Shown in pieces: positions 13,934-62,560 of a stretch of DNA of 64,000 bases; position 1 is the first letter of the stretch, and each line of letters starts with the position of its first letter. The position numbers and the translations under genes are program-made. The stretch is from Acholoe squamosa (taxonomy: Eukaryota; Annelida; Polychaeta; Phyllodocida; Polynoidae): the NCBI GenBank assembly GCA_949317995.1, contig OX439035.1, positions 6,840,427 through 6,904,426 on the forward strand, given 5' to 3'. The notes under the pieces are model-generated. The model did not search any database, was not told the DNA's origin, and saw only the letters and a program-made list of their open reading frames with translations.

Positions 13934-14266
13934 GTACGCAAATTGTTATGTAGTCCTAATCCTTGAATTACTGCTTGAGTTCTGCCTACTGCACAAGGTT
14001 AATAAGGAAAAACAAGAAAAAAGGCAAAGAAAAAAGAATAATCGCTTTTACTTAAGGGAACAGGAGTTTTGACGCAAAATGGCTGGGGGGGGGCGGGGCT
14101 TCCGACAAATCCCCCTGACCTGGTCACGTATGTCAAAGTGAAGCTGCTGTCTATTTTAACCATATTTTCTAACTTTGGTCATTGAGCACATGTATCTGGT
14201 AGAGTCTTGATTTATCTAGTCCTGGCTAGCAATTCCCATGCCCATAGTATTTACGTGACATGGCCC

Positions 14267-16034
14267 TTCCACCCACACTGAGTGGACCAGGGGCAGGTAT
14301 GAAATCCTGTCAAAGACCCAGGCGTCCCTCAGTTCTTCAACCCCTCCCTCCCTTTCACCCACACTGAGGGGACCAGGGGCAGGTATGAAATCCTGTCCAA
14401 GACCCAGGCGTCCCTCAGTTCTTCAACCCCTCCCTCCCTTTCATCCACACTGAGTGGACCAGGGGCAGGTATGAAATCCTGTCAAAGACCCAGGCGTCAC
14501 TCAGTTCTTCAACCCCTCCCTCCCTTCCACCCACACTGAATGGACCAGGGGCAGGTATGAAATCCTGTCAAAGACCCAGGCGTCCCTCAGTTCTTCAACC
14601 CCTCCCTCCCTTCCACCCACACTGAGTGGACCAGGGGCAGATATGAAATCCTGTCAAAGACCCAGGCGTCCCTCAGTTCTTCAACCCCTCCCTCCCTTCC
14701 ACCCACACTGAGTGGACCAGGGGCAGGTATGAAATCCTGTCAAAGACCCAGGCGTCCCTCAGTTCTTCAACCCCTCCCTCCATTCCACCCACACTGAGGG
14801 GACCAGGGGGCAGGTATGAAATCCTGTCCAAGACCCAGGCGTCCCTCAGTTCTTCAACCCCTCCCTCCATTCCACCCACACTGAGTGGACCAGGGGCAGG
14901 TATGAAATCCTGTCAAAGACCCGGCGTCCCTCAGTTCTTCAACCCCTCCCTCCCTTCCACCCACACTGAGTGGACCAGGGGCAGGTATGAAATCCTGTCA
15001 AAGACCCGGCGTCCCTCAGTTCTTCAACCCCTCCCTCCCTTCCACCCACACTGAGGGGACCAGGGGGCAGGTATGAAATCCTGTCAAAGACCCGGGCATC
15101 CCTCAGTTCTTCAACCCCTCCCTCCCTTCCACCCACACTGAGTGGACCAGGGGGCAGGTATGAAATCCTGTCCAAGACCCAGGCGTCCCTCAGTTCTTCA
15201 ACCCCTCCCTCCCTTCCACCCACACTGAGTGGACCAGGGGGCAGGTATGAAATCCTGTCCAAGACCCTGGCGTCCCTCAGTTCTTCATACCCTCCCTCCC
15301 TTCCACCCACACTGAGTGGACCAGGGGCAGGTATGAAATCCTGTCAAAGACCCAGGCGTCCCTCAGTTCTTCAACCCCTCCCTCCCTTCCACCCACACTG
15401 AGTGGACCAGGGGCAGGTATGAAATCCTGTCAAAGACCCAGGCGTCCCTCAGTTCTTCATACCCTCCCCCCGCGTCCACACTGAGGGGACCAGGGGTTGG
15501 GTATGAAGTCCTGTCAAAGACCAAGGCGTCCCTCAGTTCTTCAACCCCCCCCCCTGCACCCACACTTAGGGGACCAGGGGCGGTTATGAAGTCCTGTCGA
15601 AGACCCAGGCGTCCCTCAGTTCTTAAACCCCTCTCCCCCTGCATCCACACTGAGGGGACCAGGGGGTGGGTATGAAGTCCTGTCGAAGACCCAGGCGTCC
15701 CTCAGGTCTTCAACCCCTCTGCACCCACACTGAGGGGACCGGGGGGGGGGTATGAAGTCCTGTCAAAGACCAAGGCATCCCTCAGTTCTTAAACCCCTCT
15801 CCCCCTGCATCCACACTGAGGGGACCAGGGGATGGGTATGATGTCCTGTCGAAGACCCAGGCGTCCCTCAGTTCTTAACCCCCCCCCCCGCACCCACACT
15901 GAGGGGACCAGGGGGTGGATATGAAGTCCTGTCGAAGACCCAGGCATCCCTCAGTTCTTCACCCCCCCCCCACCTGCACCTACACTGAGAGGACCAAGGG
16001 GCGGGTATGAAGTCCTGTCATAGACCCAGGCGTC
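14267..16034. repeat. 86-bp tandem array (about 20 copies)
   Basis: Unit cacccacactgagtggacca - ggggcaggtatgaaatcctg - tcaaagacccaggcgtccct - cagttcttcaacccctccct. Period is 86 near the left end. The right-hand copies (after about 15465) are more diverged, with ggttgggtatgaagtcctgt and long C-runs. Antisense ORFs across it (such as 14939-15310) only read the repeat. Confidence 0.95.
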
Positions 16035-16254
16035 CCCTCTGATTTTCACTATAATTCTATTTAAAAGTTTCATTATTTTTACCTCTAAGGAATCCATTTT
16101 ATAGAAAGAAAATATTCGTTGTAAACAAATTCAGATCATGTGAAATTAGTTGTAAAGGGATTCTTTTACTATAGAAATGTATGTGGTTGATTTGGAAAAA
16201 AACGGAATTTTTTTGTTGTAAACGAAAATCCGTTGTAAGGGAATTTTACTGTAC
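16035..16254 (+). other. Spacer between the two arrays
   Basis: AT-rich, with gttgtaaacgaaaatccgtt and similar blocks (gttgtaaaggga, cgttgtaagggaattttact). It may be a remnant of an inverted-repeat element. Confidence 0.4.
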
Positions 16255-18716
16255 TACTAACATAACCTGCCCCCATTCCCCATGTCCATATACTACTTAC
16301 ATACCATAGCCTGCCCCCATTCCCCATGTCCATATACTACTTGCATAGCCTGCCCCTATTCCCCATGTCCATATACTACTTACATACCATAGCCTGCCCC
16401 CATTCCCCATGTCCATATACTTTTTACATAGCCTGCCTCCATTCCCCATGTCCATATACTACTTACATACCATAGCCTGCCCCTATTCCCCATGTCCATA
16501 TACTACTTACATACCATAGCCTGCCCCCATTCCCCATGTCCATATACTACTTACATAGCCTGCCTCCATTCCCCATGTCCATATACTACTTACATAGCCT
16601 GCCCCCATCCCCCATGTCCATATACTACTTACATAGCCTGCCCCCATTCCCCATGTCCATATACTACTTACATACCATAGCCTGTCCCCATTCCCCATGT
16701 CCATATACTACTAACATACCACAGCCTGCCCCCATTCCCCATGTCATATACTACTTACATACCATAGCCTGCCTCCATTCCCCATGTCCATATACTACTT
16801 ACATAGCCTGCCCCCATTCCCCATGTCATATACTACTTACATACCATAGCCTGCCTCCATTCCCCATGTCATATACTACTTACATACCATAGCCTGCCTC
16901 CATTCCCCATGTCATATACTACTTACATAGCCTGCCCCCATTCCCCATGTCATATACTACTTACATACCATAGCCTGCCTCCATTCCCCATGTCCATATA
17001 CTACTTACATACCATAGCCTGCCCCCATTCCCCATGTCCATATACTACTTACATAGCCTGCCCCCATTCCCCATGTCATATACTACTTACATAGCCTGCC
17101 TCCATTCCCCATGTCATATACTACTTACATAGCCTGCCTCCATTCCCCATGTCCATATACTACTTACATAGCCTGCCCCCCATTCCCCATGTCCTTATAC
17201 TACTTACATAGCCTGCCCCCATTCCCCATGTCCATATACTACTTACATACCATAGCCTGCCCCCCATTCCCCATGTCCATATACTACTAACATACCATAG
17301 CCTGCCCCCATTCCCCATGTCCATATACTACTTACAAAGCCTGCCTCCATTCCCCATGTCCATATACTACTTACATACCATAGCCTGCCCCCATTCCCCA
17401 TGTCCATATACTACTTACATAGCCTGCCCCCATTCCCCATGTCCATATACTACTTACATACCATAGCCTGCCCCCATTCCCCATGTCCATATACTGCTTA
17501 CATAGCCTGCCTCCATTCCCCATGACCATATACTACTTACATACCATAGCCTGCCCCCATTCCCCATGTCCATATACTACTTACATAGCCTGCCTCCATT
17601 CCCAATGTTCATATACTACTTACATAGCCTGCCCCCATCCCCCATGTCCATATACTACTTACATAGCCTGCCCCCATTCTCCATGTCCATATACTACTTA
17701 CATACCATAGCCTGCCTCCATTCCCCATGTCCATATACTACTTACATAGCCTGCCCCCATTCCCCATGTCCATATACTACTTACATACCATAGCCTGCCT
17801 CCATTCCCCATGTCCATATACTACTAACATAGCCTGCCTCCATTCCCCATGTCCATATACTACTTACATAGCCTGCCCCCATTCCCCATGTCCATATACT
17901 ACTTGCATAGCCTGCCCCCATTCCCCATGTCCATATACTACTTACATACCATAGCCTGCCCCCATTCCCCATGTCCATATACTACTTGCATAGCCTGCCC
18001 CCATTCCCCATGTCCATATACTACTTACATACCATAGCCTGCCTCCATTCCCCATGTCCATATACTACTTACATACCATAGCCTGCCCCCATTCCCCATG
18101 TCCATATACTACTTACGTACCATAGCCTGCCCCCATTCCCCATGTCCATATACTACTTACATACCATAGCCTGCCTCCATTCCCCATGTCCATATACTAC
18201 TTACATAGCCTTCCCCCCATTCCCCATGTCCATATACTACTTACATAGCCTGCCTCCATTCCCCATGTCCATATACTACTTACATACCATAGCCTGCCCC
18301 CATTCCCCATGTCCATATACTACTTGCATAGCCTGCCCCTATTCCCCATGTCCATATACTACTTACATACCATAGCCTGCCCCCATTCCCCATGTCCATA
18401 TACTACTTACATACCATAGCCTGCCCCCGTTCCCCATGTCCATATACTACTTACATACCATAGCCTGCCCCCATTCCCCATGTCCATATACTACTTACAT
18501 ACCATAGCCTGCCCCCATTCCCCATGTCCATATACTACTTACATACCATAGCCTGCCCCCCTTCCCCATGTCCATATACTACTTACATAACCTGCCCCCA
18601 TTCCCCATGTCCATATACTACTTACATACCATAGCCTGCCCCCATTCCCCATGTCCATATACTACTTACATACCACAGCCTGTCCCCAATCCCGATGTCC
18701 ATATACTACTCACATA
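16255..18716. repeat. 39/44-bp tandem array (about 60 units)
   Basis: Unit catagcctgcccccattccc - catgtccatatactactta (39 bp), alternating irregularly with a 44-bp form that has an extra 'catac' before 'catagcc'. Some units lack one C in gtcc. ORFs on both strands (MSIYYLHSLPPFP-type and MDMGNGD-type) are products of the repeat. Confidence 0.95.
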
Positions 18717-32512: not shown

Positions 32513-34348
32513 ATGGTACTTTGTATTGAGGAATTTAACAACAGTAAGGGGCTGGTGATTTCTTCAATTAATTGTCGTAGTTTTGAAGACAAACATGAAG
32601 AGATATACAAGTTATTGAAACGTAGTGATATAATTTGTTTATGTGAAACCTGGCTTAAGCCTGCTTCACCAGAGGGAATTATAAATATACCTGATCGTAT
32701 TTTGTATAGAAATGATCGAATTGGTAAGAATTGTGGTGGAGTAGGCCTTAGTTGTAGATCTGGTCTATGTCGATATATTAGCATTGTAAATGATTTGACT
32801 ATTCAATCGATTGATTTTGAAAGTATTGCTATTATGCTATGTCTACCGGGTGAGAAAGAACAGCTCATAGTATCTATTTATAGAATACCAAATACCAATG
32901 TACCAAATTTTCTTACTTTTCTAAAGAAGGTAGCTGGATTTGAATATAATGATAATCAAGGGAGACATGAGACTTGGGTATTAGGTGATATTAATCTAAA
33001 TATGTTTGATGATACTGATGCAAGCTGTGAGAGTTTTAGGTCATTATGTAAAGATTTAGGATGGAAAATTCTGGTACATGAGGTTACTCGTCCCTTTAGT
33101 GGTACTTGTATTGACAATGTATTATCAAATTGTGTTAACATTACTGATGCAGGTACGGTAGAAGCATTCATTTCTGATCACATTCCTGTATTTGGCTGTA
33201 AGGGCCGTGAGAATTACAAGTATACTAAAACAACTTATTCGGGCCGTGATTATAGGAATTTTAAAGAAAGTAATTTCAAAGATTTCCTGCAATCTTGTGA
33301 TTGGACATTGTATTATGATAAAAATTTGAGTACTGATGTGCTGTGGGACATGTTCCTAACACCTATTAATCAGTATCTGGATAAATATCATCCCTTTGTT
33401 GAGAGATTAGTTAAAAAAACTAGAAAAAGTTGCATAGATGATGAAGTAATGGATCTTGTTTTTGAGAGGGAAGGGTGGTTAAGGTTGTATAAGGTGAATA
33501 AAAGTGATGAAGAGAAGCAAGCTATTAAAGATTGCAGGAGAAAAATTAGGAAAAAAATAAAAGCTAATCAAATTGGTGGTATTATGCAAGAATTACATGA
33601 ATGTAGAGGAAATCCTAAGAGTTTTTGGAAATATATTAATAACATGTTTAAGGGTAATGGGTCTGAGATTTATCCAGATATGAAGCACCATGTAGATGGT
33701 ATTAAGGTCCCATCCGAAACTGCTTGTGAATATATTAATCAATACTTTTGCAATATTGGAAAAGACTTACATGTGGCTTCTGTTGGTAAAGTACAGTGTG
33801 ACATGGATAATAATGTGAGTATAGAGGAAATCATTCAGGGTGGAATTTTCTCTGAATCGAATATAAAGATTAATTCCTGGGATATCTATTATACAGTAAA
33901 AGAGATTGATAAAAATAAATCATCCGGAATAGAGGGGATCAGAGGTGATATACTACAATGTGCAATAATATGCCTGCTAGATCAATTTACTTTTCTTGTT
34001 CAGAGAAGTTTTGATAGTGGTGGTTTTCCTGTCAAATGGGCTTCTGCATTGGTCAAGCCATTACCCAAAGACGGAGATTTATCACAAGTTAAGAATCGGA
34101 GGCCTATTTCGCTATTGCCAATGCCCTCAAAAATTATTGAAAAAATAATGTATTATTATTTAAGTTGTGCCATGAAAGATCACGATAATTTTTCAGATGA
34201 GCAATATGGTTACAAGAAAGGTAGTGGTACAGGTGATGCCACCTTTGACTTTGTTAATGATCTATATGAGTATCGAAATGATGGTTTAATAACAGGGGCC
34301 CTATTTATTGACTTTACTAAAGCGTTTGACAGTGTAATCCATGTTTGA
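32513..34348 (+). pseudogene. LINE ORF2, first part: APE endonuclease and RT fingers/motif A
   Basis: Residues ~15-45 (ISSINCRS, then IICLCETWLKP) are the apurinic-endonuclease start with its catalytic glutamate. VLGDINLNMFDD carries the GDxN motif and FISDHIPVFG the SDH motif. From ~470 the RT begins: KSSGIEGIRGDIL, then NRRPISLLPMPSKIIEKIM (RT2), QYGYKKGSGTGDATFDFVND, and ALFIDFTKAFDSVIH (motif A with its catalytic Asp). The frame is lost directly after this (stop at 34346). The rest continues in another frame from 34345. Confidence 0.88.
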
Positions 34349-35400
34349 CTTCTGGAAAAAAAATTAGCAAATTAGGTTTCAGCAAAAATAACTTTCTCTG
34401 GTTTAATAGTTATCTAAAAAACCGCAAACAAAGAACTAGTTATGGCAATAATCTCTCTCAAGAATCTGAAATCAAATATGGTGTCCCACAAGGGTCTGTT
34501 TTAGGCCCCCTGTTGTTTGTTTTATACATAGATGACGTGATTAAAAAGTTGAACGAGTGCAAAATTATAATGTATGCAGATGACATTGTTTTATATCATG
34601 CAGCGAAAACACCCCAAGATGTAATGAGAGTGTTAAATGATGATCTTGAACGCTTTAAGACATGGGTATTTCACAACAGGTTGACTGTTAATCCAAAGAA
34701 AACAAAATTTATGTGGTTTTGTAGTGCTCACAAATTGAAAAATTGTCCAGATACAGATATTGTAATAAATGGTACCAGAGTAGAAACTGTAAGTTTTTTC
34801 CCCTACCTAGGAGTTACAGTAGACAGTAAGTTAAGTTTTGACAAACAAATTAAGCTTATTAAAAGAAACATTTGTAATAAATTATTTAGATTTGCTAAAT
34901 TAAGGAAATATCTCACACAAGAAGGAAGCATAAAAATATATTGTTGTACCATCCGGCCGATTATTGAATATTGCTCTTTTATAAGTACTAGTTGTAATGA
35001 GGAAGGTTTAAAGGCATTACAACGTTTACAGAATAGAGCTTTGAGAATTTGCCTTAGATGCAATATTGTTAAATATAGTGTTGATGAGTTACATGTCATC
35101 TGTAAAGTGGAAAAATTAGAACAAAGATTTGATATGTTACTTTTAAGTTTGATGTATAAGAAATCCAAGGATCAGATAAATCATGGTCATGCATATAATA
35201 CAAGATCGCAAAATAAGATACGTTTTAAATTGCCAAGAAGTATATCTCGCCATTATAAAAGATCGCCATGGTACAGGGGTGTAGTCCTCTGGGACCTACT
35301 ATCTGAGGAGGTTCAGAGGGCTACCACAAAAGTTAAATTTAAGAATGAGGTTAAAAAGTTAAAAAACCTCAGATCAAGGCTAAAGGTTGGATATAACTAA
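34345..35400 (+). pseudogene. LINE ORF2, second part: RT motifs B-E
   Basis: Contains YGVPQGSVLGPLLFVLYIDD (RT motif B and following), IIMYADDIVLYHA (motif C, with the YADD catalytic pair), HNRLTVNPKKTKFMWF (D) and FFPYLGVTVDSKLSF (E), then the C-terminal region ending LRSRLKVGYN. Offset from the first part by a frameshift beside an eight-A run (34369-34376), which probably inactivates this copy. The ATG at 34345 is incidental. Confidence 0.85.
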
Positions 35401-43110: not shown

Positions 43111-43336
43111 CTAACCCTTTTAAAGGCCGTTAATGCAGAAGTGCATCATGCCCATTGGTCGTCATGATGCACCAATGAAGTGCTGGTGAGACTGCTCACC
43201 AGCACTTCATTGGAGCATCATGCCGACCCTCCGGGAGTAAAAGTATCAACCCTGTAGAGGGCCATCACTTCATTAGTGCATCATGACGACCAATAGGCAT
43301 GATGCACTAATGCATCAGTGGCCCGTAAAGAATTGA
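43111..43336 (+). repeat. Family A MITE
   Basis: Starts taacccttttaaaggccgtt. Stem gcaccaatgaagtgctggtg / caccagcacttcattggagc. Ends gcatcagtggcccgtaaag. Confidence 0.82.
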
Positions 43337-50054: not shown

Positions 50055-50250
50055 CTGTTAAAGGGCTGCTGATACATAATGGCTATTGTTTGTCATGATG
50101 CATGAATGCAGCCCTGGCGAGTTACTCACCCAGGGCTGCATTCAAGCATCATGTCGACCCTACAGGTTTGATACAAGCCTGGATGTTAGAATCCTGCACC
50201 AATGAAGTGCTGGCAAGCAGACTCACCAGCAATTCACTGTAATAAGCTTT
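50055..50250 (+). repeat. Family A MITE
   Basis: Starts aactgttaaagggctgctga, has gagttactcacccagggctg, ends accagcaattcactg. Confidence 0.75.
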
Positions 50251-50465
50251 AACCCTTTAAAGGCCGCTAATGCAGGAGTGCATCATGCCCATTGGTCATC
50301 ATGATGCACCAATGAAGTGCTGGCGAGACCGCTCACCAGCACCTCATTGTAGCATCATGCCCACTCTACAGGGTTGATACATATGCTCCTGGAGGGTCGT
50401 CCTGATGCACCGATGAAGTGCTGGCGAGTAGTCTCGCCAGCACTTCATGGGTGCATCATGATGTT
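50251..50465 (+). repeat. Family A MITE, adjacent copy
   Basis: Starts taaccctttaaaggccgcta, stem gatgaagtgctggcgagtag / tctcgccagcacttcatggg. Confidence 0.8.
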
Positions 50466-58801: not shown

Positions 58802-59344
58802 AAGCTGATAAGAAGCAAATATCACTGTGAAGCCATGGAATAAATACAAAGGAGCACTCATGTGGGTTATTTCAAGTGCATATTTTATGCCGCATAGCAC
58901 TCTGTCCGGAGACACCCATGAAACTTTTCTTGCAAGCCTTTAAGGATTGCAGGTCCATATTTTATCGCATGATGCACCTATGCTCAATGCCTTCATGATG
59001 CACCAAATCGGGTGATGAGCACTTGGACTACTTGCCACTGCCTATTTATTGCGGCTTATGTGCAGATTGATGAGGCCAGCTCAGGGGTCGGTAAAATGCT
59101 ACTGGATGATTTTGCACACCATTTCAGTGTTTGAATCAAACACCAATTTTAAATTTTTAAAGGCAGCTGATGCATTAATGCATCATACCCATCGATCCTC
59201 ATGATGCATAATTGCAGCCCTGGCGAAAAACTTGCCTTGGCGCCTCGTCTGTAGTACTTTATGCTGACCCTATGGGAATGCTACACAAACTCCCAGAGAA
59301 TCAGCATGATGCTGGTGAGCAGTCTTGCCAACACTTCATTGGTG

Positions 59345-59564
59345 TGTAGGGGAATGTGATTTCCTTGCGCATGATTCACCGACTCTCAGGGGCCAGTCGT
59401 CGTGTAATCACATGTCCCCTCTCTGTATCACCCCAGACAAAGCGTGGGTGGAAGGTAGGAAACATTGTATGGGGAAGTAGCTCAGCTGTAGAGCAGTTGT
59501 CTGAAAGCTGAGAGGTCCTGGGTTCAACTCCCGGTTTCCCTAAACGTTTTCGCCGACCCCTACA
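59345..59564 (+). repeat. 5' LTR of the TRIM-like element
   Basis: 220 bp. In order: tgtagggg, a block with gactctcaggggccagtcgt, ctctctgtatcaccccag, the tRNA-like sequence at 59471-59541, and the end cgacccctaca. Confidence 0.8.
59471..59541 (+). tRNA. tRNA-like sequence in the 5' LTR
   Basis: 71 nt. Acceptor ggggaag pairs with tttccct (two G-U). D arm gctc/gagc; A box tagctcagctgtagagc. T arm ctggg-ttcaact-cccgg, with B box ggttcaactcc. The anticodon arm is poor: cagtt/agctg pairs around gtctgaa (anticodon CTG), but this uses a D-stem base; the alternative loop ctgaaag (anticodon GAA) has weak stems. An A follows as discriminator. Probably a pol III promoter or primer mimic rather than a working decoding tRNA. 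Confidence 0.55.
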
Positions 59565-59565
59565 A

Positions 59566-59578
59566 TGGTAGGGAAACC
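59566..59578 (+). other. Putative primer-binding site
   Basis: tggtagggaaacc is exactly complementary to the 3' end ggtttcccta plus CCA expected from the tRNA-like sequence in the adjoining LTR (59532-59542). Its position, one base after the LTR end, is standard for a reverse-transcription primer site. Confidence 0.65.
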
Positions 59579-59743
59579 AAGTAGTCCTGACCCGCGTTGG
59601 GGGGGCTACGGAACTCGGAACCTGGGCTGGAGTGATACAGCAGGCGTTTCGACCTGCTAGCGCTGGGGGTGTATGCAGGGTTTAGCTAGCCCCTGTTTGT
59701 CTGGGTGTTGGTTAATTCGTTGGTCGAAGCTGGTTGGGGGCTG

Positions 59744-59963
59744 TGTAGGGGAATGTGATTTCCCCGCGCGTGATGCACAGACTCTCAGGGGCCAGTCGTC
59801 ATGTAATCACATGTCCCCTCTCTGTATCACCCCAGTCTAGGCGTTGGTGGAAGGTAGAAAACGTTGTACGGGGAAGTAGCTCAGCGGTAGAGCAATCATC
59901 TTTAGGCTAAGAGGTCCCGGGTTCAACTCCCCATTTCCCTAAACATTTTCACTGACCCCTACA
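59744..59963 (+). repeat. 3' LTR of the TRIM-like element
   Basis: 220 bp, same layout as the 5' LTR. Differences cluster in the anticodon arm of the tRNA-like part and near 59836-59868. Confidence 0.8.
59870..59940 (+). pseudogene. tRNA-like sequence in the 3' LTR, decayed
   Basis: 71 nt. Keeps the acceptor, A box (tagctcagcggtagagc) and B box (ggttcaactcc). The T stem has two mismatches and the anticodon arm (caatcatctttaggctaag) does not fold well. Confidence 0.5.
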
Positions 59964-60022
59964 GGTGCATCATGATTACCAATGGGCGTGATGCATTGAT
60001 GCATCAGCTGTACTTAAAGGGT

Positions 60023-60300
60023 TAATGAAAACATTGACAATGTTGATACAGTTTTAACCCCCTGCCTCCATTCCATTTTCCTCCTCCCTCTACACCCCAC
60101 CTACCCATGATAATGATAATGATGGACACATATTGGCTCCAGGCAGTAATTTGCTGTGAATTAATGCACCCCGTTATCGAGCCAAGGTAAGCGATGCCTA
60201 TCGTTGCTGAGGAGTTGGGGCCCTTTTTGCACCTAAGTACACTTAGATCGCTTTTTGCCTCCATCACTCTGTGTTCTCTCAAGGCTCCTTCTTATAGCCA
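60023..60300 (+). other. Complex single-copy island
   Basis: Contains atgataatgataatgatgga and gctgtgaattaatgcacccc. No repeat family found. Confidence 0.2.
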
Positions 60301-62345: not shown

Positions 62346-62403
62346 ATTATTGTGTATCTGCTGCTATCAACCATCACTCCATTATACAGTAAAGGGATTT
62401 CAT

Positions 62404-62560
62404 TAACCCTTCAAGCACCGCTGATGCACGAGTGCATCATGCCCATTGGTCATCATGATGCACCAATGAAGTGCTGGTGAGACTGCTCACCAGCACTTCA
62501 TTGGTGCATCATGCCGACCCTGTGGGGTGGATCTATAAACTCCCTGAGGATCATCATGTA
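62404..62560 (+). repeat. Family A MITE, left part
   Basis: Starts ttaacccttcaagcaccgct, stem gcaccaatgaagtgctggtg / caccagcacttcattggtgc. Breaks off after ctgaggatcatcatg. Confidence 0.8.

Follow-up and report, generated by a model that had tools for sequence, protein, structure and literature searches.

A Helenus-type TRIM whose primer-binding site matches the tRNA-like gene in its own LTRs

The 64-kb stretch of Acholoe squamosa DNA that we analysed (the window) contains a 619-bp TRIM in which two 220-bp LTRs surround a short core, and the primer-binding site (PBS) of this element is complementary to the 3' end of a tRNA-like gene carried within the LTRs themselves. We interpret the element as a TRIM of the Helenus type whose LTR-encoded tRNA probably is, or recently was, its own primer for reverse transcription, and we assign this reading a probability of about 0.6. 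An earlier note on this DNA had proposed that the element's own pol III transcript could serve as the primer. The match between PBS and tRNA on which that proposal was built has held up and extends across the family; that pol III transcribes the gene, that the product gains CCA and that it then primes are steps that we infer.

The architecture described in the earlier note, with two 220-bp direct repeats bounded by TG and CA, a GGTG duplication, and tRNA-like blocks with A and B boxes, is present in full (Table 1). The two LTRs differ at 27 positions, 18 of them transitions, and are 87.7% identical. The PBS 13-mer, TGGTAGGGAAACC, starts one base in from the 5' LTR and is, as had been stated, the exact complement of the 3' end of the 5' LTR tRNA plus CCA (13/13); against the 3' LTR tRNA copy plus CCA it matches at 11 of 13 positions. 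It has a single exact match in the window, and allowing up to two mismatches gives 3 matches, about what chance would produce. The classification as a gag/pol-less LTR element or TRIM is likewise upheld by the absence of any ORF of at least 130 aa within the 619 bp and by the full structure of 17 of 29 genomic loci.

Table 1. Features of the TRIM and its flanks, in window coordinates.
Feature	Position	Strand	Basis
Left target-site duplication GGTG	59341..59344		Sequence and empty site
5' LTR, 220 bp, TGTAGGGG...CCCCTACA	59345..59564	+	Repeat comparison
Stem arm in 5' LTR, pairs with core (18-bp long-range stem)	59424..59442	+	From LTR offset; 402/411 cells paired, 23 elements
Pre-tRNA leader, complementary to trailer (family consensus)	59458..59466	+	487/508 cells paired, 58 LTRs; no covariation above shuffles
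tRNA-like gene, 72 nt; family anticodon loop CTGAAGG, Phe GAA-like	59471..59542	+	RF00005, 43.3 bits
A box TAGCTCAGCTG	59478..59488	+	Sequence; pattern in 56/58 LTRs
B box GGTTCAACTC	59521..59530	+	Sequence; pattern in 51/58 LTRs
TTTT, pol III terminator-like, 4 nt 3' of discriminator base	59547..59550	+	TTTT near LTR end in 42/45 LTRs
Internal core, gene-less	59565..59743	+	No ORF of at least 130 aa
PBS, 13 nt, exact complement of own tRNA 3' end plus CCA (commonest family form: 14 nt)	59566..59578	+	Sequence
Core arm of 18-bp long-range stem	59621..59639	+	Complementarity to LTR arms
Conserved GGTTGGGGGCTG at PPT position, 5' of 3' LTR, only partly purine	59732..59743	+	Family comparison
3' LTR, 220 bp	59744..59963	+	Repeat comparison
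3' LTR stem arm, alternative partner of core arm	59823..59841	+	405/413 cells paired
tRNA-like gene of 3' LTR	59870..59941	+	RF00005, 36 bits
TTTT, pol III terminator-like, 3' LTR	59946..59949	+	Sequence
Right target-site duplication GGTG	59964..59967		Sequence

When joined at the duplication, the flanks of the element form an unbroken dispersed repeat. A stretch of 98 nt spanning the join aligns without a gap, at 88.8% identity, to window positions 62495-62398, and further copies of this repeat in the window likewise span the junction. The whole 619 bp therefore entered as one unit. We rejected two other classes for the element. In a MITE one would not read direct 220-bp repeats flanking a PBS-bearing core within a single outer duplication, and the 8 solo units discussed below are read as solo LTRs; a SINE is at odds with the LTRs, the PBS and the 4-bp duplication, and the tRNA sits inside the LTR.

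The dispersed repeat is TGATGCAT-rich; it borders the TRIM at 59156-59344 and 59964-60026 and recurs, for example, at 62398-62495, 50249-50341 and 43112-43204, and a tandem array resembling it lies at 2343-2721. Elsewhere in the window, positions 32513-35400 resemble a non-LTR retrotransposon in two frames, with a reverse transcriptase domain in both and an endonuclease match below cut-off in the first; the protein nearest to the reverse transcriptase-encoding region (32513-34348) is 53% identical. Large C-rich tandem arrays with units of 86 and 44/83 bp occupy 14264-18716, and the GC skew at 16-18 kb is -0.61.

We considered the family in the host genome, which comprises 63 contigs and 1.48 Gb; 18 of the contigs are apparently large, the length falling from over 27 Mb in contig 18 to 66.5 kb in contig 19. 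The LTR query returned 1930 first-look candidates, 40 of which were scored, and among the 44 matches listed, 40 span the full 220 bp at 88-100% identity. The query was used to fetch 29 distinct loci (L002 was dropped as the same element as L014): 17 are full elements and 8 are solo LTRs, and the remaining 4 copies are rearranged or truncated. Exact 4-bp duplications flank 9 of the 17 full elements and 5 of the 8 solo LTRs, with one mismatch in a further 6 and 3, respectively; no flanking 4-bp duplication was found in 2 of the 17 full elements (L006 and L026). The earlier note had held that 220-bp units inserting alone with their own duplication could mark a tRNA-bearing MITE. Such units exist at 8 of the 29 loci, 5 of them with exact duplications, but the resemblance is superficial: a larger share of the loci, 17 of 29, hold full LTR-PBS-core-LTR copies within a single outer duplication, so the solo units are the solo LTRs expected of such a family.

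Divergence between paired LTRs ranges from 2.7 to 13.2% in 16 pairs, among which we therefore see no very young insertion, and the window copy, at 12.3%, is the second most diverged. The core comes in two lengths, about 179 bp (the window type) and about 219 bp. Several copies are rearranged in individual ways: at L020, LTR positions 1-141 are repeated in steps of about 180 bp as a tandem array, L033 has an extra PBS 3' of its second LTR, and L093 carries several LTR motifs. Element patterns gave 0 matches in the viral_contigs and genome_contigs sets, the latter of which may leave out the host itself. In the host genome, contig C63 (15641 bp) begins with 2.5 kb that read as a mitochondrial genome in the invertebrate code, including a 502-aa ND4-like frame, named by eye, which fits an invertebrate host.

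The two tRNA-like genes are the only Rfam matches in the window above the gathering score (29); CRISPR-DR4 and DUF805b, which appeared near the element, scored below gathering and were dismissed. Against RF00005 the window genes score 43.3 and 36 bits, and other family copies (18 loci) reach up to 55.9 bits, while folding of the window copies is not clearly better than that of shuffles: when the two tRNA copies are folded alone, 14 and 78 of 200 shuffles are equally stable, and the cloverleaf was not obtained as the predicted minimum for either. Across 45 LTRs, pairing is nearly complete in the acceptor stem (306/314 cells), D stem (178/180) and T stem (214/225), and reaches only 134/225 in the anticodon stem. 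The anticodon loop is CTGAAGG, Phe(GAA)-like, in 41 of the 45; of 41 genes that ARAGORN lists for L001-L030 (L002 repeating L014), 29 are called as Phe, but those of the window copy as Gln and Leu.

Of 45 LTRs, 42 have a TTTT close to their end, most often as AACGTTTT directly after the discriminator base (27/45). Each LTR therefore carries an apparent pol III gene with its own terminator, rather than a scrap of promoter. Such a terminator makes it awkward to regard the tRNA as a mere promoter for genomic RNA, unless termination leaks. In the family consensus, the leader is complementary to a trailer at 59543-59551 over 9 nt (487/508 cells); in 58 LTRs this pairing has no covariation beyond shuffles, 270 of 1000 of which reach the observed value. 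A TRIM LTR at L081 (C3, about 82.69 Mb) has a different tRNA body and anticodon arm with the same acceptor 3' end, and perhaps represents a sister family.

The fit of the PBS to the element's own tRNA was scored over 37 distinct loci (L001-L038 minus L002). With 10 solo LTRs and the array L020 set aside, 26 remained in which both the 5' LTR and the PBS could be scored. Against the element's own 5' LTR tRNA plus CCA, the PBS matches at 14 of 14 positions in 8 elements, at 13 in 14 elements, at 12 in 3 and at 7 in one, L026, which carries a small insertion. At the level of sequence, the match is real, family-wide and above chance, and it is present across three T-loop classes. The commonest PBS is TGGTAGGGAAACCGAG, which fits over 14 nt and then has A at position 15 where the tRNA needs G, and in most scored elements the fit ends at 13 or 14 nt.

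Two elements extend this fit. In L054 (T-loop GAAAC), the PBS TGGTAGGGAAACCGGGTT matches the element's own tRNA at 18 of 18 positions, and the first mismatch falls exactly opposite A58. In L024 (T-loop AACTC), whose 5' LTR is truncated with the tRNA end kept, the PBS TGGTAGGGAAACTGGGAG matches at 17 of 18, the sole mismatch being a C to T change in a CpG. Positions 15-18 read GGTT in L054 and GGAG in L024, in each case as the element's own LTR tRNA class demands. L048 and L069, the other two GAAAC-class elements seen with a PBS, carry the common PBS. In a second pass, 29 elements among the fetched loci fitted a strict text pattern; when the PBSs are shuffled among these, 2 of 5000 trials reach the observed own-tRNA fit at positions 15-18, a figure determined largely by L054 and L024. 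Elements lost to the pattern include L005 and L088, which fit less well at these positions (3/4, read by eye, and 2/4, respectively). In HIV-1 it is established that plus-strand strong-stop synthesis copies the 3' 18 nt of the primer up to m1A58 (PMC13191261). The footprints in L054 and L024 are those that an LTR tRNA serving as primer would leave behind, given a putative m1A58.

A pattern of the tRNA 3' end, from B box to discriminator, which passes over host tRNAs with another B box, has 316 exact matches in the genome, and the reversed-pattern control has 0. The matches listed cover contigs 1-5, and we examined 50 of the 316, namely 30 loci on contig 1, judged by eye, and 20 hand-picked unpaired matches on contigs 1-4, judged by eye and with a permissive pattern. 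All 50 lie within LTRs of these TRIMs or of sister classes, some of them being both LTRs of one element, and no free-standing tRNA gene was found among them. Some of the 50 are damaged: L059 lacks the LTR end and retains its start and trailer, the tRNA of L047 is without its 5' portion, and mutated ends occur in a few. The earlier note's concern that an ordinary host tRNA might match equally well or better is thus not borne out in this sample.

An autonomous helper was sought with the exact 14-nt PBS preceded by no C at three upstream sites, which are CCC at the TRIM LTR end. This gave 3 matches, as against 7 in reversed controls, and the 3 are two rearranged TRIMs and one unrelated site. No autonomous element with this PBS was seen with this pattern, which is blind to LTR ends with C at any of the three sites, more than half of random ends.

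The LTR and core also share an 18-bp complementarity. LTR positions 80-98 pair with the core in 402/411 cells for the 5' LTR and 405/413 for the 3' LTR across 23 elements, and one pair of the stem is G-C in 18 or 19 of the 23 and A-T in four (L001, L006, L022 and L031), with both sides changed between subfamilies, probably in one event. Formed with the 5' LTR arm, the stem would bracket the tRNA and PBS and might act as a leader stem; pairing with the 3' LTR arm instead might close the RNA into a circle. From L014, a 222-nt segment comprising stem, tRNA and PBS folds with z = -3.0, and 0 of 200 shuffles are as stable.

TRIMs with a tRNA in the LTR were named Helenus by Kojima in 2024, the animal ones having 4-bp duplications, and TRIMp3 was proposed there for pol III TRIMs (PMC10886601). 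The earlier note knew of no named animal family with this exact design but allowed that one might exist; Helenus is a named family of this design, leaving the match to the element's own primer as the unusual part. Like Helenus, the window family is gene-less and shorter than 1.3 kb, with an A- and B-box tRNA-like gene in both LTRs, a PBS close to the inner edge of the 5' LTR, the 4-bp duplications of animal Helenus, and solo LTRs. The place of the PPT is taken by the conserved GGTTGGGGGCTG, which is only partly purine. Unlike Helenus, its PBS complements its own LTR tRNA. Kojima weighed priming by the LTR tRNA in Helenus and reported no complementarity to the PBS, and the PBSs of animal Helenus were assigned to host tRNAs that Gypsy elements also use (PMC10886601). 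Going by this published description, the window family is a Helenus variant whose novel part is the PBS match to its own LTR tRNA.

Cassandra and Ajax (described in PMC10886601) also have a pol III-type gene sequence in a TRIM LTR, but theirs is 5S rRNA sequence, and the Ajax PBS fits tRNA-Leu; membership of Cassandra was ruled out, only RF00005 passing the gathering score in the window. Bivalves have another animal TRIM, biv-TRIM, whose LTRs are likewise about 200 bp long and which also occurs in solo and tandem forms, differing in its internal part of 77-80 bp, its want of an unambiguous PBS and, in the portion of the source drawn on here, in having no LTR tRNA described (PMC6934838). Among the open-licence PMC papers listed, judged largely by title and the start of the abstract, we found none describing an LTR element that takes its primer from its own LTR tRNA, and two sequence strings of the element were not found in open-licence PMC papers.

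We suggest that a short LTR transcript made by pol III would be trimmed and CCA-tailed. A longer transcript, either pol III read-through of the minimal TTTT of the 5' LTR ending at the TTTT of the 3' LTR or a pol II product, would be packaged by a presumed LTR-retrotransposon helper. The LTR tRNA would then anneal to the PBS and prime first-strand DNA, and plus-strand strong-stop synthesis would copy the last 18 nt of the primer into a new PBS, with the consequence that PBS and tRNA would stay matched. Precedents for primers of altered specificity exist. In an MLV vector, a tRNA-like primer engineered to match an artificial PBS rescued that PBS (Lund 1997, as cited in PMC3185771), a system that likewise pairs a non-host tRNA-like primer with the PBS but is man-made, with the primer in trans; and mutant tRNA-Lys3 with altered 3' ends is described as priming at sites matching those ends (PMC3832253). 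More tentatively, and with some doubt on our part, a single LTR pol III gene with a leaky TTTT may yield both products, a CCA-tailed primer and a read-through template, the template running from the 5' tRNA to the 3' TTTT with tRNA-bearing R repeats at both ends. The PBS would then be rewritten in each round, co-evolving with the tRNA and free of the host tRNA set.

Priming by the element's own tRNA is favoured by the own-tRNA fit in 26 elements, by positions 15-18 of L054 and L024, and by the location of all 50 examined matches in LTRs, and it is weakly supported by the helper search, with its 3 matches against 7 in controls and no autonomous user. The unclear folding of the window tRNAs, the weak anticodon stem, the usual stop of the fit at 13-14 nt and Kojima's finding of no such match in Helenus count against it. 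In an ordinary Helenus, the LTR tRNA would be a pol III promoter only, and priming would fall to a host tRNA that shares its 3' end and is perhaps its ancestor, which agrees with the published account of Helenus (PMC10886601). The commonest PBS runs on with ...CCGAG, so that a hypothetical tRNA ending in CTCGGTTTCCCTA would fit 16 nt as against 14 nt for the LTR tRNA, and only 50 of the 316 3'-end matches were examined. All of those 50 are LTRs, however, the best of 27 human tRNA ends is, as weak evidence, Phe with 10 of 14 positions against the PBS, and one host tRNA cannot suit both L054 and L024, each of which fits its own tRNA class at positions 15-18. On balance we consider a host primer unlikely.

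Tf1, as is known, primes with the very 5' end of its own RNA; there too the element supplies the primer, as proposed here, but through its mRNA 5' end and not a tRNA. A similar mechanism in the window family would have a templated CGGTTTCCCTA in the element RNA pair with the downstream PBS and RNase Z or RNase H free the 3' end, with no separate CCA-tailed tRNA and TGG merely copied as CCA. As CGGTTTCCCTA and the PBS lie next to each other, genomic RNA could fold there into a hairpin that has a 26-nt loop and a stem of 11 bp, or of 10 bp in the window copy. In this family, however, the pairing segment is the 3' end of a 72-nt tRNA rather than an RNA 5' end, the remaining tRNA stems and the terminator are conserved, a cut at that point would part R from the template, and the 18-nt fit of L054, stopping before position 58, is what a modified tRNA primer would be expected to leave; we regard self-priming of this kind as improbable. 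The match could also be a fossil of own-tRNA priming in an ancestor, carried passively since then by copies that are dead or otherwise primed. The differences of 2.7-13.2% in the 16 LTR pairs, with the window copy among the oldest, agree with such a history, but the match spans three T-loop classes, and in L054 and L024 the PBS seems to have been renewed, which leaves a fossil match very improbable.

In the accepted view, host tRNAs are needed to start reverse transcription in LTR retroelements and retroviruses, or, in Tf1, the element's own mRNA end. If priming by the LTR-encoded tRNA is the correct reading, a primer gene inside the LTR would break this dependence. It could explain why some TRIM LTRs keep a whole tRNA-like gene, beyond what a promoter provides, and the co-evolution of PBS and primer would be readable from hundreds of genomic copies.
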